A stretch of 64,000 bases of DNA from Bacteroidaceae bacterium (GTDB lineage Bacteria > Bacteroidota > Bacteroidia > Bacteroidales > Bacteroidaceae). The number at the start of each line of letters is the position of its first letter. The stretch's first letter is position 1. This document shows, piece by piece, positions 22,944 to 32,275 of this stretch. A model generated the notes under the pieces. It made no database searches, had not been told where the DNA came from, and saw nothing but the letters and a program-made list of their open reading frames with translations. The translations under genes and the position numbers were made by a program. The DNA lies in NCBI GenBank assembly GCA_017615835.1, contig JAFZZI010000007.1, positions 124,001 through 188,000 on the forward strand, in the 5' to 3' direction.

Positions 22944-23162
22944 TTATCCAAGAAACTCTATGATGTCATCTAACGTCTTGAATTCCATCAGTTTCGAGTC
23001 TGGAATGGAAACGTTGAAGCGATCTTCGATGGCAGAAACCATCGAAAGTACCACAAAAGAGTTGAGGCCAATGAATTTGAGTCCCAAGGATGTGTCTATC
23101 TCGTTTGCCGGGACATCCACATAATCCTTGACGATGCTGATGAGTTCACTTTTCTTATCCAT
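22944..23162 (-). CDS. Acyl carrier protein (stand-alone, first of two)
   Basis: A 72-aa four-helix carrier protein. The phosphopantetheine site is Ser35 in FIGLNSFVVLSM: the usual D before Ser is N (GLNS instead of GxDS), as seen in some specialised carriers. Helix 3 and the C-terminus (SIPDSKLMEFKTLDDIIEFL) fit the fold. It is the last gene of the minus-strand operon TPR protein, condensation-like enzyme, acyl-AMP ligase, ACP, 15 bp after the ligase. It is therefore the expected carrier for that ligase rather than the fatty-acid-synthesis ACP. Confidence 0.88.
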   Translation of the reverse strand: MDKKSELISIVKDYVDVPANEIDTSLGLKFIGLNSFVVLSMVSAIEDRFNVSIPDSKLMEFKTLDDIIEFLG

Positions 23163-23177
23163 CTGATTGATTCATTT

Positions 23178-24902
23178 TCAGTTGATTGATATCCCATTGC
23201 CAGAGCACTCGGTTGGAAGTCCGGCCCGCTTGATCTTGCGCGTAGAAGTCTTGGGGTATTCCTTATCGGGAAGTTCCACATAGTCGATGACCTTATACGA
23301 GGGCAGCAAAGCATTTACGCGGGCAATGTCTGCCCCTATTGCCTCTCTGTCAGAACGTTTCAGTTCTTCGGGAATGAACAGTCCTGCACAAAGTACATTC
23401 CTGCCATTACAGGATGCCTGATAGACAACGATGTCACTGGCGTAACTGATATTGGTCTCGATAATATTCTCTATCTCTTCCGGACAGATATTCTTTCCGT
23501 TCGGCAGTACTATCGTATTCTTCTTGCGACCCATAAGGAAAATACGGCCCTTTGAATCAATGCGGGCGCTGTCACCGGTGTTGAAGAAACCATCTGCACC
23601 AAAAACCTTGCGGGTGGCCTCCTCGTCTTTGTAGTAACCTTTTGCAACGCTCGGTCCTTTTACGCAGAGTTCGCCTATTCCATCGCTGTCAATGTTGTCT
23701 AACCTTACCTGAAGGGAGTAGCAGGGAACACCGACGCTGAGATGTTCAGACAGGGTGTCGCCGTTCATGGAGATGAGCGGACCGCATTCGGTGATACCGT
23801 AACCGTTCTCCACCCGGATACCCAAGTCGTTGAGACCCTTAACTGTAACAGGGTTCAGCATTGAACCTCCGCAAACAAGCATATTAAGGTTTCCGCCAAA
23901 TTGCTCGTGAATCTCCCTGAACATCGAGTGAGTCCTATCAATGCCTAACTTGCGCAGTAAATTGGAGAGTCTGATACCTTTTTTCAGTTTTTCAGCTTTC
24001 CCAGCCTTCTCGGCATTTGCCCAAATACTCTTGTAGAAGGCATTGGCTATCATTGGAACCACTGTTATTATCTGAGGTTTGAAAATTTTCATGTTTACCA
24101 TCAGATTCCGCATATTGTCGTTGATGTAGGTAAGACGTCCGGCCCCTATGCGTGCCATTATATGCGTATTTATCTCTGTAGCATGATGCATCGGCAGCAC
24201 ACTCATTGAGGTATTGACCCTCTCTGCACGAATTGAATCAAGACAGTTGTTTATGTTCGCAGTAAGATTACGGTTTGTGAGTACAACACCCTTGTTTGCT
24301 CCTGTGGTACCGCTGGTAAACAGTATCTTTGCAGGCTCATCAAGATCGGTTTCCATATTGCGGTACCGGCTTTCAGACTTAAGACTGAGCCCCCTTGCTA
24401 CAAGGTTATCATAGAACAGACAACCCGGCATTTCTTTGTCGATGGTTATGATTGTCCTGAGCAGCCTGCACTCCGGCTGAACGGATTTAACGGCCTCAAG
24501 GTGTGCTGCGCTGCAAAGGACAGCGGTTGCATCACACTTGGTCAGAAGAGTCTTGAGAAGAGTTTCCGGAGCATCCTTATCAATAGGAACGACTACGCCG
24601 ACACCGCATGATATGGCAATGTCTGAAATGACGTAACGGCAGGAATTCTCTGCAATAATTGCGATGTGAGCACCTTGTAATCCGGCATCTAAGAGTCCGT
24701 CACCAAGATTCATTACCTCCTCACGCAATTCGTGACAGGTGATGTAGAAAATGCCGCCTTTCCCGTCCAACCCGGCAAGAACCTTGTCATCAGGCATGAA
24801 ATGGTCTATTCTTTGCAGAACATCCCGAATGCTGCGGTAATCACCGTCTTTGAAAAGAGTTCCTGCAAGGTTCTCCCTGTCTGATTTGAATTTTTGTCTC
24901 AT
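23178..24902 (-). CDS. Acyl-AMP ligase (class I adenylate-forming enzyme), first of two
   Basis: A 574-aa ANL-family enzyme that activates a carboxylic acid with ATP and should load it on a carrier thiol. The P-loop signature ILFTSGTTGANKG lies at about 193-205, core motif ENGYGITECGPLISMNGD follows, and FNTGDSARIDSKGRIFLMGR holds the ribose-binding Asp. The C-terminal subdomain has the catalytic-Lys region PKTSTRKIKR. It resembles long-chain acyl ligases more than amino-acid adenylation domains; the substrate is not readable. It abuts the condensation-like gene (TAGATG: stop and start touch) and precedes the ACP gene by 15 bp. Confidence 0.88.
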   Translation of the reverse strand: MRQKFKSDRENLAGTLFKDGDYRSIRDVLQRIDHFMPDDKVLAGLDGKGGIFYITCHELREEVMNLGDGLLDAGLQGAHIAIIAENSCRYVISDIAISCGVGVVVPIDKDAPETLLKTLLTKCDATAVLCSAAHLEAVKSVQPECRLLRTIITIDKEMPGCLFYDNLVARGLSLKSESRYRNMETDLDEPAKILFTSGTTGANKGVVLTNRNLTANINNCLDSIRAERVNTSMSVLPMHHATEINTHIMARIGAGRLTYINDNMRNLMVNMKIFKPQIITVVPMIANAFYKSIWANAEKAGKAEKLKKGIRLSNLLRKLGIDRTHSMFREIHEQFGGNLNMLVCGGSMLNPVTVKGLNDLGIRVENGYGITECGPLISMNGDTLSEHLSVGVPCYSLQVRLDNIDSDGIGELCVKGPSVAKGYYKDEEATRKVFGADGFFNTGDSARIDSKGRIFLMGRKKNTIVLPNGKNICPEEIENIIETNISYASDIVVYQASCNGRNVLCAGLFIPEELKRSDREAIGADIARVNALLPSYKVIDYVELPDKEYPKTSTRKIKRAGLPTECSGNGISIN

Positions 24903-26249
24903 CTAAAAAAGGTTTTCAAGATTTTTATCTGGAGCTTTCAGAACGGTCTCAGCCACATGTACTAAAAGATTGTTGAATTCCATCACGTCTGCGCCTGACG
25001 CCATTTTGTCCTGAATGTCATACATTACGTCCAACTCGCCGGTCTGGACATTATACATCAAAGCGACATAGGTCGTCAGAGATCCCTTCCCGTTGCTGTG
25101 AATCTGAAATCTGACGCCTTCAGGAGAACTGAAGGGTATGAATGAGTAACAAAAACTTATGAGTTGATGGGTCATAGGGTATTCCCACTCTTTATGTTGC
25201 ATGCTCTCTATACCAAGATAGGAGAGCTTGGTGTGCCTGAAACACTGATTCTGGTCTGCATAGGCAGCGGCAATATTCTGGTTGAAAGACTTACCGTAAT
25301 CCACCGTGGTATAAACGCTTATACTCTGGACCTTCGTTCCGGCTGCCTTGCGGTCTGCTATTGTACCTCTGCAGTCAAGAAGCATGAGAGGCGCAAGGAC
25401 AGGTGCCTTGTCGTTCACAAGCGATGCGGCTATTGAGAAAACATAAAAGTAGAAAGACGACATAGTTATGTGCTGCTGTTCGCACCACTGGGATACCTTC
25501 TCATTGACTAAGGCCGGAATGGTGAGTTTATAACCTGTCGTGTCACATCGTATGAACAGATATGGTATTGAAAACCGACCTTTTCGCTTCTGCCTGAGCC
25601 AATAGTCACACCTGTTGCCGGTTATTCCACAGAAAACGGGATTTGGCTTACCTTCATAATAGTTGCGGAAGAACTCTTCGTCCCTGCGGACAGCCTCTTC
25701 ATTATCCCTATAACTGCTGTCGTTACGAAGTATTTCCTCAAAACTGCCTGGAGCAGGAGGCATTTCTGTACCGTTTCTGAGAGCCTTGTAGACCGCAAAC
25801 AGATCATTGACTAATACTCCTATTCCATACGTGTCAGCCGAGAAATGGCTAACCTTGAAGATTATCATGTCTTTTCCGTCCGGATTGACAGCAAAAACCA
25901 CCTTCAATGTCTCGCCCTTGAAAGGACTGACCTGGCTAACACGAAACTTGCGAAGAAAGGCATCGAGCTTGGACTGTGTATCAAACACCTTGAACGGAAT
26001 GTTGCCTATGGAACGCTTTTCTTCGAAAAACTGTAGTATTTTCTTGTTTTTCTTTACAAAAGATATGCGAAGACAGTCGTTGCGTTCAAAAAGCAGATTG
26101 ATAGCTTTTGTCATCAGTTCACGATCAAAGCCCTCATCAACCACAGTAGAAAAAAGGATGTTGGCCACCCTTTCGAAGAGGGCATACTTTGTCTGTAGAT
26201 GGATGACATCTTGAGAATTGTTGAATCCGTAAAAGAATCTTTCAGCCAT
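24903..26249 (-). CDS. Stand-alone condensation-domain-like acyltransferase
   Basis: A 448-aa protein with the two-lobe organisation of the chloramphenicol-acetyltransferase/condensation-domain superfamily. The active-site motif appears as FKVSHFSADTYG: H135 and D139 match the second His and the Asp of HHxxxDG; the first His is Ser and the Gly is Thr. Other superfamily-like segments are MTKAINLLFERNDCLRISFV near the N-terminus and YPMTHQLISFCYSFIPFSSP near the C-terminus. Family members join a carrier-bound acyl group to an amine or hydroxyl. With the adjoining ligase and ACP it would be the transfer step. I base this on motif and context; the acceptor is unknown, and an epimerase-like or inactive role is not excluded. 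Confidence 0.7.
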   Translation of the reverse strand: MAERFFYGFNNSQDVIHLQTKYALFERVANILFSTVVDEGFDRELMTKAINLLFERNDCLRISFVKKNKKILQFFEEKRSIGNIPFKVFDTQSKLDAFLRKFRVSQVSPFKGETLKVVFAVNPDGKDMIIFKVSHFSADTYGIGVLVNDLFAVYKALRNGTEMPPAPGSFEEILRNDSSYRDNEEAVRRDEEFFRNYYEGKPNPVFCGITGNRCDYWLRQKRKGRFSIPYLFIRCDTTGYKLTIPALVNEKVSQWCEQQHITMSSFYFYVFSIAASLVNDKAPVLAPLMLLDCRGTIADRKAAGTKVQSISVYTTVDYGKSFNQNIAAAYADQNQCFRHTKLSYLGIESMQHKEWEYPMTHQLISFCYSFIPFSSPEGVRFQIHSNGKGSLTTYVALMYNVQTGELDVMYDIQDKMASGADVMEFNNLLVHVAETVLKAPDKNLENLF

Positions 26250-26264
26250 ATGATGATATGTTAT

Positions 26265-27152
26265 TTATTTCCAGTTCGACTTTGCTTGCTCGAACTCGTC
26301 GTACTGATCAGAAAGCGACTTGGTATGCGGAGAGTTGCGATAGAGAGACTCGGAATATTTGAACAGAGCCATAGCTTCTTCTCTGTCTGACATCTGGCCA
26401 AGCGGACGATCAGACCAGGCGGGTACATAATCTGAACCCAAGGAACCGTCAAAATAACTGTATTTGTCAATATTGCCTAACCCCTTGCGCAAGAACTTAT
26501 CGTGATTACTGTCAATCGATGACTTCCGCTTCGAAGCACTCCAGTTGCGGTCATAGAGAGCACGCGCCAGAAAGCAGTAAGTAGAAATCCATGGCTGCCC
26601 ATCGGGAATACAGTTAACTGCTTTCCTTCCGAAATTTATTGCAGCCTCGTTTGACTTCAAGGGGTGATTAATGTATATTTCCCCAAGAGCCTGCCAAGCT
26701 TCAGCCACATCGGTTCTACCCAGTTTCTCGATAATCGCAGTGAGATCATCAGTCATAACCGACACTTTACGTGCCTGCTCCGCAATAGATCTGGTCTGAC
26801 AGTCACGACCAATGTTGGCACAGTGCCACATGTAATTGCAGTAATTCGCAGGGTCTGCTCTCTTTCCGTCCTCGGCATATGCTATTCCCTTTCCGAAAGC
26901 TTCTCTTTTCGACTCAACGGAAGTTCTCCCCTGGCCAATCATAAGGTAAACGCGCGAAAGGCGCCACAAAACTTCTGATTTCACATGGCTGTCAGGAACA
27001 CTTGTCAACATAGACTCCAGCATGGAAGCACAGCCTGCATAGTCTTCGCCTTTAGAAAAAAGAGCGTCTGCCCCGGTGAAGTCGAATGCCGCGATGTCAA
27101 GACATGCCATCAGCGCGGATACGACAGCAGAAAAGTGTAACAATCTTCTCAT
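26265..27152 (-). CDS. Exported TPR-like protein heading the ligase operon
   Basis: A 295-aa protein from the ATG at 27150-27152: MRRLLHFSAVVSALMACLDI. This is a signal with either a lipobox (LMAC) or a signal-peptidase-I site after IAA. The rest is helical with TPR-like spacing (EVLWRLSRVYLMIGQ, AEAWQALGEIYINHPLKS, AINFGRKAVNCIP). The frame is open 56 codons further upstream, but the promoter at 27173-27203 lies within that extension. It is the first gene of the minus-strand operon, 15 bp before the condensation-like gene. Its presence in the periplasm or at the outer membrane is odd for a biosynthetic operon and may point to handling of an exported product. Confidence 0.72.
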   Translation of the reverse strand: MRRLLHFSAVVSALMACLDIAAFDFTGADALFSKGEDYAGCASMLESMLTSVPDSHVKSEVLWRLSRVYLMIGQGRTSVESKREAFGKGIAYAEDGKRADPANYCNYMWHCANIGRDCQTRSIAEQARKVSVMTDDLTAIIEKLGRTDVAEAWQALGEIYINHPLKSNEAAINFGRKAVNCIPDGQPWISTYCFLARALYDRNWSASKRKSSIDSNHDKFLRKGLGNIDKYSYFDGSLGSDYVPAWSDRPLGQMSDREEAMALFKYSESLYRNSPHTKSLSDQYDEFEQAKSNWK

Positions 27153-27172
27153 ACCATGATTTTTTAGCGCTG

Positions 27173-27203
27173 CAAAGTTACATAACGCGTGAATTGTGAC
27201 AAA
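27173..27203 (-). promoter_or_regulatory. Promoter of the TPR/condensation/ligase/ACP operon
   Basis: Minus strand TTTG (27203-27200), 19 nt, TAACTTTG (27180-27173): an exact Bacteroidetes promoter 20 bp before the ATG. The -33 element is part of the palindrome copy at 27194-27203. Confidence 0.8.
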
Positions 27204-27304
27204 TATATGTGCCAACTGCTCCAATTTTGTGACAAAGCACATGGCAATATCATAGAAAATCCATATTTTTGTGACGAAATACAAACACTCATTTTCTGTC
27301 ACAA
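27193..27304. promoter_or_regulatory. Array of TTTGTGACAAA-type palindromes in the divergent promoter
   Basis: Copies lie at 27194-27203 (TTGTGACAAA), 27226-27236 (TTTGTGACAAA, a perfect palindrome around G27231) and 27268-27278 (TTTGTGACGAA). A partial inverted copy is at 27297-27304 (TGTCACAA). Centres of the first three are 33 and 42 bp apart, about three and four helical turns. The first overlaps the leftward -33 box and the third overlaps the rightward -7 box. This looks like an operator set; which protein binds is not known. Confidence 0.65.
27264..27271 (+). promoter_or_regulatory. -7 element of the LytTR regulator gene
   Basis: TATTTTTG (TAnnTTTG), 33 bp before the ATG at 27304. No TTTG at 19 nt, which would suit a promoter that needs an activator. 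The in-frame GTG at 27271 lies in the box itself and so is not the start. Confidence 0.55.
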
Positions 27305-28119
27305 TGCCTAGAATGCCCAAGATTCCTAATTATATGTACGGTTGGCCGGCAACAGTAATCCACTTTCTGACAATTCCTTTCTTTTTCTTCGACTATATTC
27401 TTTTGTTCACACCCCTCGGTATGATAGAAATGTTGGACATGGATCAAGGCAATGCCATCTTCAACATATCCATCATAAGTTGCATTCTACTGGGCGTATT
27501 GACAACGACGCGAATAACCATGCACTTCCTGCTCAAGTCAATCTACATCAACTATGTGCTGTACGGGATATGGTGTCTGTGCGAGATTTTCTCTGCATCA
27601 ATGTTATCAGCCATGTTCTTCTCGCTTTATAGCGGGACCATCCCTTTCTTCAACGCACTCATGTTTATTGTTGGACGCATGCTGCTCATACTATCCTTCC
27701 CTTATACAATAATAGCATTGTCTTTCGTCGCTAACGGAGCCAACAGACAACACACTCCAAATGAAGTGACAGACAGAACTGTAATCAAGTTTTACGACCA
27801 TCGCCAACTGATGAAGGTGGCTATTGCTGAAAAATACATTCTGTTCCTGAAGTCTGACGAGAATTACGTTGAGATACACTATCTGGACAACGGAAGAATT
27901 ATGAAATATTCGTTAAGATCCAGTATGAGAAGACTTGAAAACACACTTGAAGCACACGGATTGGTACGTTGCCACAGAACTTATTATATCAATCCCCTTC
28001 ATGTAAAGTTCCTAGGCCGGAACGCTCAGGGATTCATCTACGCAGAGATGGAAGGCCCTGAATCAATCCGAATTCCAGTTTCTAAATCATATTACGCTAA
28101 TTTGGCCACTATTCTTTGA
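27304..28119 (+). CDS. Membrane-anchored LytTR-family transcriptional regulator
   Basis: A 271-aa protein with four predicted transmembrane helices (about residues 15-37, 48-70, 84-106 and 115-143) and a C-terminal LytTR DNA-binding domain (about 165-268). The LytTR core shows as KYILFLKSDENYVEIHYLD, SLRSSMRRLENTLEAHGLVR and CHRTYYINPLHVKFL. There is no receiver domain, so it is a one-component regulator that could sense a membrane or lipid-linked signal. It is divergent from the TPR/ligase operon and upstream of the ACP2 operon, over the palindrome array. That makes it the natural candidate regulator of both arms. Confidence 0.85.
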   Translation: MPRMPKIPNYMYGWPATVIHFLTIPFFFFDYILLFTPLGMIEMLDMDQGNAIFNISIISCILLGVLTTTRITMHFLLKSIYINYVLYGIWCLCEIFSASMLSAMFFSLYSGTIPFFNALMFIVGRMLLILSFPYTIIALSFVANGANRQHTPNEVTDRTVIKFYDHRQLMKVAIAEKYILFLKSDENYVEIHYLDNGRIMKYSLRSSMRRLENTLEAHGLVRCHRTYYINPLHVKFLGRNAQGFIYAEMEGPESIRIPVSKSYYANLATIL

Positions 28120-28222
28120 CAGTTGAACGTTGTCCGCCACAAAAAAAAGGCTATTCGCCAAGACATCGGCACCGTTCGTCCCAAACTCAACAAGGTTTGA
28201 CCGGCAGAAAAATTATTATGTC

Positions 28223-28230
28223 TACCTTTG
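28223..28230 (+). promoter_or_regulatory. -7 element of the ACP2 operon
   Basis: TACCTTTG (TAnnTTTG), 35 bp before the ACP2 ATG. A TTTG at 28196-28199 lies 23 nt upstream, longer than the usual 19, so basal activity may be weak. Confidence 0.55.
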
Positions 28231-28264
28231 CCGGCGATTGAAGACAAACCGAACAATAATTATT

Positions 28265-28528
28265 ATGGACAAAATTTCAAAAAAATCAGAGACAGAATCC
28301 AAACTGATTGGACTCATTTCAGAAAAACTGGAAATCCGCAAAGAAGATATCAATACTTCGTCCAACCTCATCTCCGACCTGGGAGCTGATTCGCTGGACG
28401 TGATTGAATTGATTATGAATGTAGAAAAGGAGTTCGGCATCAGAGTGCTAGAGGAAGACTCAAAGGATTTGCAAACTGTCGGAGACATTGTAAATTATAT
28501 AAACAATATTCAGTCATTGGCGTCATGA
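28265..28528 (+). CDS. Acyl carrier protein (second of two)
   Basis: An 87-aa ACP with the standard DSL site, Ser43 in LISDLGADSLDVIELIMNVE, and the usual C-terminal KDLQTVGDIVNYINNI. The N-terminus is slightly longer than in fatty-acid ACP. The start at 28265 follows the -7 element; the open frame upstream would precede it. Its last four bases overlap the start of the next ligase (ATGA), so ligase and carrier should be made together. The two ACPs of the locus differ at the residue before the modified Ser (D here, N in the other), consistent with different partners. Confidence 0.93.
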   Translation: MDKISKKSETESKLIGLISEKLEIRKEDINTSSNLISDLGADSLDVIELIMNVEKEFGIRVLEEDSKDLQTVGDIVNYINNIQSLAS

Positions 28529-30174
28529 AAGTGGAAAATTTCATTAAATTGTTTGAGAATTCTGTAAAGAGAGACTGGGACAAACTGGCCTTGTCGGAAT
28601 ATCGCAAATCAGACATTACATACAGAGAGTTGGCAGAAGATCTCGAAAAATTCAAGATCTTGTGGAAAGCTGCCGGACTCGGAAGAGGCGACAAGGTCGT
28701 TATTAACGCACGCAGTTGTACACATTGGATTGAGGTGTTCATGGCTGCTGTAAGCGGAAGCTTTGTAAGCGTACAGCTTTTCAACGGTTTTCTGCCCAAA
28801 GATGTTCAGCAACTCGTCAACCACTCAGAAGGAAAGATCCTATACACAGAGAAAAACCTTTTTAAATCGATGGATTTTGAGTCGATGCCTGGCGTCATCG
28901 CAGCAATTGATACTGAGACTCTGGAGATTCTTGCGAGCAGGGGTTCCTTTGAAAAGGCTTACAGTTCAGTTGACAAACTGTTCAAAGAGAAATACCCGAA
29001 TGGAATGACTCCAGATGATATTTCGTTTGACATTCCTGAAATGGACGAGGTCTGTGCGATAATGTACACATCAGGATCTACCGGCAATCCCAAGGGTGTA
29101 ATGCTGACTGTCAGGAATTTCAGTTGGAATGTGCATGAGATTCCAAACCACTTCCCCTACCAACCGGAAGAGAATTACACAAGTATTCTTCCTTATGCCC
29201 ATATCTTCGGACTGACTTGCGACGTCATCATTCCGATGTGCATGGGAATGCACGATATCATTTTGGGCATGCCACCAATACCTTCAAATGTATCAGCCAT
29301 AATGCAGGATTATCATCCGAGAATTTTTCTTGCAGTGCCATTGATTCTCAGCAAATTTGTTGAATATGCCGTGGGTGCCGAGATGAAGAGCGCCGAAGGT
29401 AGGGAGAAACTGGAACACTATAAGGAGAACAGAGAATACTGTGACATGTTGCGTGACAAGGTTCTGGCGGCCCTGGGAGGGAGAATTGAAGCCTTTGCGA
29501 CAGGCGGAGCTGCCATTCCTCCACAGATTGAGGCTCTGCTGGCCTTCCAGATAAACATGCCTTTCATCACTGGGTATGGCATAACAGAATGTGCCCCGGT
29601 AATAGCCATAGGTCATAGGGGAAGCTACAAAGCTAAGTCTTGCGGAGAGTATGTTCCAAGCCTGAATGTAAAAATTGACTCAATTGACCCGGAAAATATT
29701 CCCGGTGAGATTCTGGTTAAGGGTGATAATGTTTTTGCAGGATATTTCAAGAATCCGGAAGCCACTAAGGCGACATTTACTGAAGACGGCTGGTTCAAGA
29801 CTGGAGACATCGGCACAATGGACAAGGATACAACTCTGTTTATCTCTGGTCGCTGTAAAAACATGTTGCTCTCATCAAACGGACAGAACATTTTCCCTGA
29901 AGAGATTGAAGTTGTACTGAACACGCTCCCATACGTGGCAGAATCAATAATTGTACAACGTGAAAACTTCCTGCATGCGATAATTGTGGTTGATGCCAAC
30001 AAAATATCGGAAAACAACCTGGATTCTGCAACGCTGAACAAAATAATGGAAGGGAATCTCAAGAAACTGAACAGTGCAATTCCGTCATACTCGTCGGTAA
30101 GCTCATACGAAATAAGACTGGAGCCTTTTGCGAAGACTCCGAAGGGAAGCATCCGCCGTTTCATGTATACCTGA
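28525..30174 (+). CDS. Acyl-AMP ligase (class I adenylate-forming enzyme), second of two
   Basis: A 549-aa ANL enzyme of the long-chain-acyl-ligase type. The P-loop IMYTSGSTGNPKGVMLT lies at about 179-195, a FITGYGITECAPVIA motif follows, then WFKTGDIGTMDKDTTLFISG and, at the end, the catalytic-Lys region AKTPKGSIRRF. It overlaps the ACP2 gene by 4 bp and is followed after 50 bp by the FabZ-like gene. In this setting it most likely loads a free acid on ACP2, so the locus can start from a preformed acid rather than from malonyl units. An acyl-CoA synthetase role is the alternative. Confidence 0.88.
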   Translation: MKVENFIKLFENSVKRDWDKLALSEYRKSDITYRELAEDLEKFKILWKAAGLGRGDKVVINARSCTHWIEVFMAAVSGSFVSVQLFNGFLPKDVQQLVNHSEGKILYTEKNLFKSMDFESMPGVIAAIDTETLEILASRGSFEKAYSSVDKLFKEKYPNGMTPDDISFDIPEMDEVCAIMYTSGSTGNPKGVMLTVRNFSWNVHEIPNHFPYQPEENYTSILPYAHIFGLTCDVIIPMCMGMHDIILGMPPIPSNVSAIMQDYHPRIFLAVPLILSKFVEYAVGAEMKSAEGREKLEHYKENREYCDMLRDKVLAALGGRIEAFATGGAAIPPQIEALLAFQINMPFITGYGITECAPVIAIGHRGSYKAKSCGEYVPSLNVKIDSIDPENIPGEILVKGDNVFAGYFKNPEATKATFTEDGWFKTGDIGTMDKDTTLFISGRCKNMLLSSNGQNIFPEEIEVVLNTLPYVAESIIVQRENFLHAIIVVDANKISENNLDSATLNKIMEGNLKKLNSAIPSYSSVSSYEIRLEPFAKTPKGSIRRFMYT

Positions 30175-30224
30175 TCTTTTCAGGAAGGGTGCTTTCCAAA
30201 GAATACATATATTGATTCAGTCTG

Positions 30225-30659
30225 ATGAACAGGGAAGAATTGAAGAAAATCCTACCGCATCGTGAACCTATGTTGCTGGTGGACAAGTCTGAAATAGTCG
30301 GGAACGAGGTTATTTCCGAATATACTGTACATGAGGATGATTTTTTTCTGAAAGGTCATTTCCCCGGTAACCCCATAGTTCCCGGAGTGCTGATCTGCGA
30401 AATCATGGCACAATCGAGCGTACTGCTTGTCAAGGATGCCGTAGAAAACAAACTGGCAATGTATGTGGGACTCGACAACGTGCGTTTCCGCAAATCAGTT
30501 AGACCGGGCGATACGATAGTGGTAAAGGCCTCGCTTATCAACAGAAAAGAATCTCTCTTTGTCGTAAAAGCCAAGGCTTTCGTTGATGAAACATTGTGTT
30601 GCAGCGGTACAATGTCTTTCATGGTTGTTAATCTTGAAAAAAATAAAGAACAGAATTAA
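30225..30659 (+). CDS. FabZ-like 3-hydroxyacyl-ACP dehydratase
   Basis: A 144-aa single hot-dog protein. The catalytic pair is visible: His45 in FLKGHFPGNPIVPGV and Glu59 in LICEIMAQSS, both in FabZ positions; the N-terminal LPHREPMLLVD is also FabZ-like. It should remove water from a 3-hydroxyacyl carrier substrate to give the 2-enoyl form. Its stop overlaps the next start by one base (TAATG), tying it to the enoyl reductase. No ketosynthase or ketoreductase accompanies it. It could be a paralogue or the genome's main FabZ; other genome copies cannot be seen here. Confidence 0.88.
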   Translation: MNREELKKILPHREPMLLVDKSEIVGNEVISEYTVHEDDFFLKGHFPGNPIVPGVLICEIMAQSSVLLVKDAVENKLAMYVGLDNVRFRKSVRPGDTIVVKASLINRKESLFVVKAKAFVDETLCCSGTMSFMVVNLEKNKEQN

Positions 30660-31468
30660 TGGGAAACAATATTCTTGCCGGCAAAAAAGGCATTATCTTC
30701 GGAGCGCTCAATGACAAGTCAATTGCATGGAAGGTTGCAGAGAAAGTTTCTGCAGAAGGCGCAAAACTAGTGCTTACAAACACACCTCTGTCAATGAGGC
30801 TAGGAACCATAGATCAACTCGCAAGCCAGACTGACAGTCTGTCAATACCAGCAGATGCAACATCGGTCAGCGATCTTACCTCTCTGATTGAAAAGTCGAT
30901 GGAGCATTTCGGAGGGAAGTTCGATTTTGTATTGCATTCGGTTGGAATGTCACCAAACATTCGCAAAGGACGAAAGTATGAAGATACCAACTATGATTAT
31001 TTCCTTAAGACGATAGATATTTCAGCCCTCTCTTTTCACAAGACACTTCAGGTTTTATACTCGATGGACGCTCTGAACGAATGGGGTTCAGTCGTAGCAC
31101 TTACATACATAGCGGGCGACAGAGCGGTATTTGGATATAACGACATGGCTGATGCAAAAGCGATGCTTCAATCTATTGCCCGAAATTTCGGCCTTCTGTA
31201 TGGCAGGAAAAGACACGTAAGAATCAACACAGTCTCACAGTCTCCTACTATGACTACTGCAGGAAGTGGTATTAAGGGAATGAATGACATGTTCACATAT
31301 GTGGATAATGAATCACCTCTTGGAAACGCTTCGGCTGAAGATTGTGCAGGATTGGTAACAGCGCTGTTTTCCGATTACACCCGCAAGGTTACAATGCAGA
31401 ATATTTACAACGATGGGGGATTCTCCAGCATGATACCGATTCCCTGGAGCAGTAAAACGACTGAATAG
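30659..31468 (+). CDS. FabI-like enoyl-ACP reductase
   Basis: A 269-aa short-chain-dehydrogenase-fold enzyme that reduces a 2-enoyl-ACP with NAD(P)H. The N-terminal nucleotide loop is GIIFGALNDKSIAWKVA, as in FabI. The active-site set Tyr150, Tyr160, Met163 and Lys167 (TYIAGDRAVFGYNDMADAK) has exactly the spacing of E. coli FabI Tyr146, Tyr156, Met159 and Lys163. Substrate-loop and C-terminal segments (QNIYNDGGFSSM) also fit. It is translationally coupled to the FabZ-like gene and is probably the last gene of the ACP2 operon, as the next gene has its own -7 element. Confidence 0.9.
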   Translation: MGNNILAGKKGIIFGALNDKSIAWKVAEKVSAEGAKLVLTNTPLSMRLGTIDQLASQTDSLSIPADATSVSDLTSLIEKSMEHFGGKFDFVLHSVGMSPNIRKGRKYEDTNYDYFLKTIDISALSFHKTLQVLYSMDALNEWGSVVALTYIAGDRAVFGYNDMADAKAMLQSIARNFGLLYGRKRHVRINTVSQSPTMTTAGSGIKGMNDMFTYVDNESPLGNASAEDCAGLVTALFSDYTRKVTMQNIYNDGGFSSMIPIPWSSKTTE

Positions 31469-31483: not shown

Positions 31484-31507
31484 TGCAGAGACAAAGAAAA
31501 GAATAAG

Positions 31508-32275
31508 ATGAAAAAGTCAGCAACTCTCCTGGCAATGATGGTTTTCGCATCATGTGCCATAGCCTACGAAAATGTGTCTGTTGAGGATTTCGCCAGACTT
31601 GCGGCATTGCCCGAGTCCCAGGTTCTTGATGTACGCACCTTTGAAGAGTATGAAGAAGGGCATATTCCATCTGCATATCTGGCAGATATCAGACAAGATG
31701 GCTTTCTGCAGAAGGTACAGGCAATGCTGTCTAAAGATAAACCGGTTCTGGTGTATTGCCGCACAGGAGTCCGAAGCACCAATGCCTGCGCAGTGCTGGC
31801 AGATGCCGGATTCAAAGTCTATAATCTCGAAAAAGGCATTACAGCATGGAAAGAAACTGGAAAAGAAATAACAACAGCAGATATGAAAAAAGTATTCGAG
31901 TTCATCAAGGCTTGCGGCACTTACTACTTGGCCACCGTAGATAAAGATCAGCCGCGTGTACGTCCATTTGGTACAGTAAATATTTTCGAAGACAAATTAT
32001 ACATTCAGACTGGTCACAAGAAGGATGTCGCAAAACAGATAGATGCGAACGGCAAAGTTGAAATCTGTGCTTTCAACGGAAAGGAATGGATTCGCCTAAG
32101 CGGGATTCTTGTATCTGACGAACGGATAGAAGCCAAGAAATCCATGCTGGATGCCCACCCGGAATTGCGAGGTATGTACAGTGAAACCGATCCCAACACC
32201 GCAGTTTATTATTTCAAGAACGCGACCGCCCGTATTTGCTCCTTCACCGATCCGGAAGAGATTATTCACTTTTAA
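31508..32275 (+). CDS. Exported rhodanese domain fused to pyridoxamine-oxidase-like (FMN-binding split barrel) domain
   Basis: A 255-aa protein with signal MKKSATLLAMMVFASCAIAY (either lipobox FASC with Cys16 or cleavage after AIA). Residues about 22-120 are a rhodanese domain: LDVRTFEEYEEGHIPSAYLA, with the active Cys84 in VYCRTGVRSTN. Residues about 125-255 are a split-barrel flavin-fold domain of the PNPOx-like type (FEFIKACGTYYLATVDKDQP, RPFGTVNIFEDKLYIQTG). Single rhodanese and PNPOx-like proteins are common; the fusion plus an export signal is unusual. A redox or sulfur-handling role outside the cytoplasm is inference. It ends at a hairpin shared with the convergent kinase gene. Confidence 0.78.
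   Translation: MKKSATLLAMMVFASCAIAYENVSVEDFARLAALPESQVLDVRTFEEYEEGHIPSAYLADIRQDGFLQKVQAMLSKDKPVLVYCRTGVRSTNACAVLADAGFKVYNLEKGITAWKETGKEITTADMKKVFEFIKACGTYYLATVDKDQPRVRPFGTVNIFEDKLYIQTGHKKDVAKQIDANGKVEICAFNGKEWIRLSGILVSDERIEAKKSMLDAHPELRGMYSETDPNTAVYYFKNATARICSFTDPEEIIHF

Follow-up and report, generated by a model that had tools for sequence, protein, structure and literature searches.

A putative Bacteroidales relative of the Clostridial fatty-acid-amide cassettes, back to back with a fatty-acid module that is probably separate from it

We analysed a 64,000-nucleotide stretch of Bacteroidaceae DNA (the window; positions 124,001 to 188,000 of contig JAFZZI010000007.1 in assembly GCA_017615835.1), in which two groups of genes for acyl carrier proteins (ACPs), acyl ligases and partner enzymes diverge from a short intergenic region. 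The assembly that holds the window comprises 2.34 Mb in 32 contigs and is 81.8% complete; the window is part of contig C32. An earlier annotation made from the letters alone (the first-pass annotation) had placed nine genes here, and all nine were found to be present at those positions with open frames. Comparison of the window proteins with Pfam and NCBIfam at E ≤ 0.01 revealed PP-binding, AMP-binding, Condensation, LytTR, PP-binding, AMP-binding, FabA/FabZ and FabI-like reductase families. We favour the view, with a probability of about 0.62, that these genes form two independent systems lying back to back: the left arm would be a Bacteroidales relative of the Clostridial fatty-acid-amide cassettes, and the right arm a separate type II fatty-acid module.

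The left arm is encoded on the minus strand and consists of four genes. These are the carrier protein ACP1 (22944..23162; PP-binding, E 4e-12), with GLNSF around the phosphopantetheine serine; the acyl-AMP ligase LIG1 (23178..24902; AMP-binding, E 2.5e-55), with the motifs TSGTTG and KTSTRKI; the free-standing condensation enzyme COND (24903..26249; Condensation, E 2.2e-18), with the motif SHFSADT; and a TPR-like protein (26265..27152). The last of these matched no Pfam or NCBIfam family at the same threshold, so the name "TPR" comes solely from the first-pass annotation. By eye, the look of its N-terminus suggests an exported protein, and its start is probably the ATG near 27152, not the start of the longest open reading frame. 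Facing these genes on the plus strand is a membrane LytTR regulator (27304..28119; LytTR, E 8.2e-13), for which the ATG at 27304 was likewise judged by eye to be the probable start, again not that of the longest open reading frame. The candidate LytTR operator region in between (27194..27304, assigned to no strand) contained TTGTGACAAA at 27194 and 27227, TTGTGACGAA at 27269 and the inverted TCTGTCACAA at 27295.

When COND was compared as a single sequence with all PDB sequences, 12kh_A was matched end to end (E 2.9e-21), and the next match, PvdL, was partial (2.1e-6). A profile of 14 COND sequences gave 1.6e-33 for 12kh_A and 8.2e-18 for the next structure. The entry 12KH is OaaC of Coprococcus eutactus, which is the sole solved structure matched by COND over its full length; the structures that followed it were C domains of nonribosomal peptide synthetases (NRPS), all matched only in part. 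As described in PMC13142362 (a bioRxiv preprint), OaaC couples fatty acids carried on an ACP with free amines, its adenylation (A), ACP and condensation (C) proteins are separate, and it has a 17-residue insertion relative to AB3403, with a helix from Gln214. In our alignment, all nine COND sequences and OaaC had some 20 extra residues following the active site, which none of the ten other C domains compared possessed; the distance between the catalytic His and a common anchor was 109-112 residues in the former and 88-93 in the latter. Trees grouped COND with OaaC at 99/99 (20 rows) and at 99/98 (17 rows, three omitted), with a long-branch warning. The outgroup C domains were obtained by plasmid searches, which yielded distant domains only, mostly in NRPS. 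Ten were kept, including the free-standing protein EcoliP and two near copies, BamyP and the fragmentary BvelP. We dropped the second domains of L138, L140 and L144, which were weaker, and also the NRPS of the window's own genome (L042), which matched neither query. This last locus, on contig C30 (L042:6817-19136), encodes carrier-domain proteins of 3032 and 1073 amino acids that are NRPS-like by size and domains.

The His and Asp of HxxxD were invariant in all 14 COND sequences aligned, and a broken condensation enzyme was rejected on this basis. The same 14 sequences carry the motif [S/C]HxxAD[T/Q]Y. The first-pass annotation had described all active sites as intact apart from a changed condensation motif; for COND, the catalytic residues are intact and only the flanks differ, as they do in all 14 sequences aligned.

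A strong COND match was found in only two of 151 family genomes, namely the window's own and G070 of the same genus. An order-wide search of 393 genomes gave a strong match only in the window, together with four weak, partial ones (E 2e-5 to 7e-4). A scan of named genome contigs revealed 12 COND loci with 54-63% identity to the window COND, of which six come from horse or yak by title (horse faeces, four; Candidatus Minthomonas equi, one; yak omasum, one), four from RUG assemblies, a prefix that we take to denote rumen assemblies, and two from other sources. The left cassette is patchy in gut Bacteroidales, with several examples from horses and ruminants. As for its composition, an ACP adjoins the cassette in 10 of the 12 loci, contig ends cutting the remaining two, and the phosphopantetheine serine is kept in all ten cassette ACPs aligned. 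LIG1 homologues (57-71% identical) adjoin COND in nine loci, although two of these ligase genes are cut by a contig end and that of L133 is split in two frames. A homologue of the TPR-like protein adjoins COND in eight loci, and a divergent LytTR gene is found in seven. The left arm is a unit of its own, with LytTR facing TPR-COND-LIG1-ACP1.

Some loci showed variations on this arrangement. In L124 (8620-11347) and L133 (7752-11335), COND is present in tandem, with the TPR-like gene between the copies in L133; the first copy is more divergent (49-50% identical to the window COND) than the second (54-55%). In L125 (9998-12221), L126 and L127 (4704-6927), COND and ACP are followed by an HD-domain protein, for which Pfam was checked in L125, and a similar-looking protein lies four genes downstream of the ACP in L132. 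The DNA upstream of LytTR in L122 (3-8997) encodes two A-T proteins, one with a reductase and the other with a thioesterase, as well as a fusion of a MATE transporter with a HATPase domain.

The LytTR gene was assigned to the right arm in the first-pass annotation, and both its kinship and the repeats beside it place it with the left. The window LytTR protein shares 49% identity with its L122 counterpart and 30-34% with those of L123, L124, L125, L127 and L133; its identity to LytTR proteins that adjoin LIG2-type ligases (L100, L102 and L048) is only 26-27%. The sequence TTGTGACRAA is repeated in the intergenic region between LytTR and the left operon. The octamer GTGACRAA was spotted first in the window and was then counted in the corresponding regions, extended by 60 bases on either side. 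It occurred at least once in all eight regions with LytTR (the window and seven others), three times in the window, against an expected count of at most 0.06 per region as calculated from the remainder of each locus, and in none of the five regions without LytTR. None of 2000 dinucleotide shuffles of the window region reached three matches; in the set as a whole, the number of shuffles reaching the observed count was 0 in five regions, 1 in L124, 23 in L122 and 47 in L133. Since some regions are alike (L125 and L126 at 99%; L125 and L127, and L124 and L133, at about 77-78%), about five can be regarded as independent. No exact octamer was found between 27279 and 36267, and hence none lies ahead of ACP2. 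LytTR and the operator-like repeats accompany the left arm, and a partnership of LytTR with the right arm was rejected on gene kinship and repeat positions. Binding of LytTR to the repeats, and control of the left operon in either direction, would be consistent with this layout.

The right arm lies on the plus strand and comprises ACP2, a carrier of the fatty-acid-synthesis (FAS) type (28265..28528; TIGR00517, 80.2 bits against a cut-off of 70.45); LIG2, a Bacteroidales acyl-ACP/CoA ligase (28525..30174; AMP-binding, E 2.7e-59); a FabZ-like dehydratase of an auxiliary type (30225..30659; FabA, E 5.8e-20); and a FabI-type enoyl reductase (30659..31468), which matched PDB 6vlx nearly end to end (E 4.2e-120). 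The sequence directly after FabI (31505-32275) encodes a fusion of a Rhodanese domain with a pyridoxamine-oxidase-like domain. Of 151 family genomes, 142 contain LIG2 matches at E ≤ 1e-60; among the matches listed, those with 51-58% identity came from genus g1 and genus g21, and relatives in same-genus genomes were 49-58% identical. LIG2 has KTPKGSI where LIG1 has KTSTRKI, whose lysine we take to be the A10-type lysine that most adenylating enzymes presumably carry at this position. The pattern KTPKxSI[KR]RF is common to about 25 LIG2-type orthologues and to the wider ligases aligned; the change is therefore not damage in the window copy, and inactivation of LIG2 by lysine loss was rejected. 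The view that all active sites are intact thus needs amending for the missing A10-type lysine of LIG2, which shows no sign of copy-specific damage.

The auxiliary FabZ was also found in 19 other same-genus genomes (37 searched). FabF adjoins it in all 19, LIG2 lies in the same stretch in 18 (the exception being a contig of 7.3 kb), FabI is present in two and an acyl-ACP thioesterase in three; FabF and the thioesterase were each identified with Pfam in a single case. At E ≤ 1e-8, none of the 19 yielded an ACP2 match. As previously annotated, no ketosynthase is encoded in the 64 kb: tblastn with two FabF proteins and one protein judged KAS III-like by eye gave nothing below E 0.02 in the window, and PF00109 was matched just once in the assembly, next to an ACP on contig C7. 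Because all 19 relatives have FabF beside FabZ, the missing ketosynthase is peculiar to the window copy, and the idea that the right arm lacks one by design was not sustained.

The right arm may be the organism's housekeeping FabZ and FabI with a scavenging acyl-ACP ligase and an ACP, an explanation that is compatible with our reading of the left arm and to which we give somewhat less than even odds. The window FabZ is the only FabA-domain match in the assembly and the window FabI the only close FabI, the latter matching a solved FabI over almost its whole length; ACP2 exceeds the FAS ACP cut-off; and TIGR03151 (FabK) had no match, not even a weak one, in the window's genome. The assembly, however, is only 82% complete, and the relatives argue in the other direction. 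Most same-genus genomes (31 of 37) have a separate strong FabZ match, and the frame that holds it is as long as an LpxC-FabZ in 30 of these (a fusion confirmed in one genome); this FabI was found in only six of the 37, the window's included. The strong FabZ match, again mostly (18 cases) in a frame as long as LpxC-FabZ, is also present in all 19 relatives with the auxiliary FabZ, so the auxiliary FabZ is a second copy there. Strong FabZ matches were lacking in the window's genome (G000), G050, G070, G088, G119 and G151; with completeness of 90% or more in G050, G070, G088 and G119, real loss of FabZ is possible. TIGR03151 was not matched over its cut-off in any of the 37 genomes, and the idea that FabK is the genus's obvious housekeeping enoyl reductase was accordingly rejected; this cut-off is strict, being reached by one of 14 control genomes, and weak matches were present in 26 of the 37 (the best, in G177, partial at 5.8e-34; the rest at E 1e-5 to 3e-4). 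The first-pass annotation had foreseen that the right arm might prove to be the genome's only FabZ/FabI set with ordinary function: it is the only set in this assembly and its function may be ordinary, which provisionally speaks against a single pathway.

The first-pass annotation had joined the two arms into one pathway, in which the right arm would make or edit the acyl chain and the left arm would transfer it. The arms adjoin with LytTR in between, and a right arm with an ACP of its own and without the usual FabF could have taken on a different role in this genome; the link can also be checked in few genomes, COND being so rare in the family. Gene neighbourhoods nevertheless led us to reject this pathway, which we consider very unlikely. 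A tblastn search with the right-arm proteins (E ≤ 1e-3) detected FabZ or FabI near COND in none of the 12 named loci, seven of which extend far enough upstream to test adjacency; ACP2 and LIG2 had matches only in the ACP and LIG1 of the cassette itself, in an adenylation domain of L122 and in a fragment at the contig edge of L124 (the 104-residue end of a LIG2-type ligase, 41% identical). G070, which is 98% complete, has the left arm, and its best right-arm ligase is only 36% identical, with no close FabI and no strong FabZ. Conversely, right-arm-type modules occur in the 19 other same-genus genomes, and COND was absent from both of those searched for it (G104 and G133). The octamer, as noted, is missing ahead of ACP2. 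The co-occurrence of the arms that had been proposed is therefore not seen in related loci.

Several observations weigh against the favoured reading of two independent systems with an amide-type left arm. Only seven of the 12 loci (L122, L124, L125, L127, L130, L132 and L133) have at least 3.7 kb of upstream DNA, and adjacency of the right arm was tested in those. The 12 loci include near copies (L125/L126 and L129/L130/L131), and L132 is a contig of G070. COND and ACP have no adjoining ligase in L125, L126 and L127, and five loci have no LytTR. The identity between COND and OaaC is only about 19%, long branches meet in the tree, and only one fatty-acid-amide C sequence was included in it. Finally, the COND flanks (S/C before the His, T/Q after the Asp) lie outside the amide-type motif (D/H)HxxxDS as described in PMC13142362, where the last position is given as S 42%, A 36% and G 17%. 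Because of these flanks, we file COND as a variant rather than a member of the amide-type C proteins.

The diverged flanks also favour another assignment of COND, namely an acyltransferase to a hydroxyl, carrier-bound or polymeric acceptor (giving an ester, lipid or glycolipid) instead of an amide synthase. Ester-forming members do exist in the C-domain superfamily. However, the closest solved relative, OaaC, makes amides, COND shares its insertion, and the cassette has the same free-standing gene set as the amide cassettes; we therefore regard this assignment as rather unlikely. A further reading combines the two arms differently: a separate acyl-amide branch in Bacteroidales of animal guts, diverged from the Clostridial one in flanks and acceptor and switched by the membrane LytTR protein at a conserved operator, would in this genome have recruited the neighbouring FAS module and its ACP for a special acyl chain, forming a two-stage pathway. 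This is quite unlikely in our estimation.

Returning to the two independent systems, the left arm would work as follows. LIG1, with ATP and a fatty acid, would form an acyl-AMP and pass the acyl group to holo-ACP1; the His of HxxxD in COND would promote attack by a freely diffusing amine, joining it to the acyl group; and the N-acyl amide would be released. The gene content agrees with the earlier proposal that a preformed acid is activated on a dedicated ACP and its acyl group moved to an acceptor. The membrane LytTR protein may read a membrane or cell signal, bind the GTGACRAA repeats and switch the left operon on or off, and the TPR-like protein presumably has a part in the same system. In the right arm, LIG2 would load an acid on ACP2, and FabZ and FabI would modify the beta position, be it in ordinary type II fatty-acid synthesis or on scavenged chains. 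The right module would thus be built on an acyl-ACP-ligase-like enzyme, and the left system would not need it.

The left arm is most likely, judging from these comparisons, a Bacteroidales branch of the fatty-acid-amide cassette that often has a LytTR gene. Fatty-acid amides from gut Clostridia are described as acting on host G-protein-coupled receptors (PMC13142362). If our reading is true, a regulated Bacteroidales relative widens the list of possible makers of such host signals. The left cassette is also a handy test system, in which just three small proteins, a single regulator and a short putative operator are involved.

We compared both arms with the closest known systems. No account of a Bacteroidales LytTR/condensation/ACP cassette was found in the open-licence literature searched. 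Unlike aryl polyene, flexirubin and dialkylresorcinol clusters, the window contains no ketosynthase. Acylated amines from Bacteroidota are known from Bacteroides dorei, which, by the description in PMC12746155, makes doreamides and N-acyladenosines; the words "condensation", "acyl carrier" and "adenylation" are absent from the main text of that paper. For the right arm, Alistipes finegoldii is described as using two acyl-ACP synthetases (AfAas1 and AfAas2) for gut fatty acids (PMC10522932), and LIG2 resembles these, by family and description, as an AMP-binding acyl ligase, here together with ACP and FAS genes. The right arm is also similar to the same-genus LIG2-FabF-FabZ modules (with or without FabI or an acyl-ACP thioesterase) in having LIG2 and FabZ side by side, but it lacks FabF and has its own ACP. 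For the left arm, the first-pass annotation knew of no named pathway with this gene set; its free-standing A, ACP and C proteins are those of the fatty-acid-amide clusters, as far as these are described in PMC13142362, which cites Chang et al. 2021 for the OaaA/OaaACP/OaaC cassette of Coprococcus eutactus. In contrast to the Clostridial cassette as described there, the left arm lies in Bacteroidales, its COND has the low identity to OaaC given above and SHxxADT in place of (D/H)HxxxDS, and its relatives add LytTR with the repeats (7/12) and the TPR-like protein (8/12). Like that cassette, it has a free-standing ligase, ACP and condensation protein, and COND is homologous to OaaC end to end, with a common insertion and HxxxD kept.

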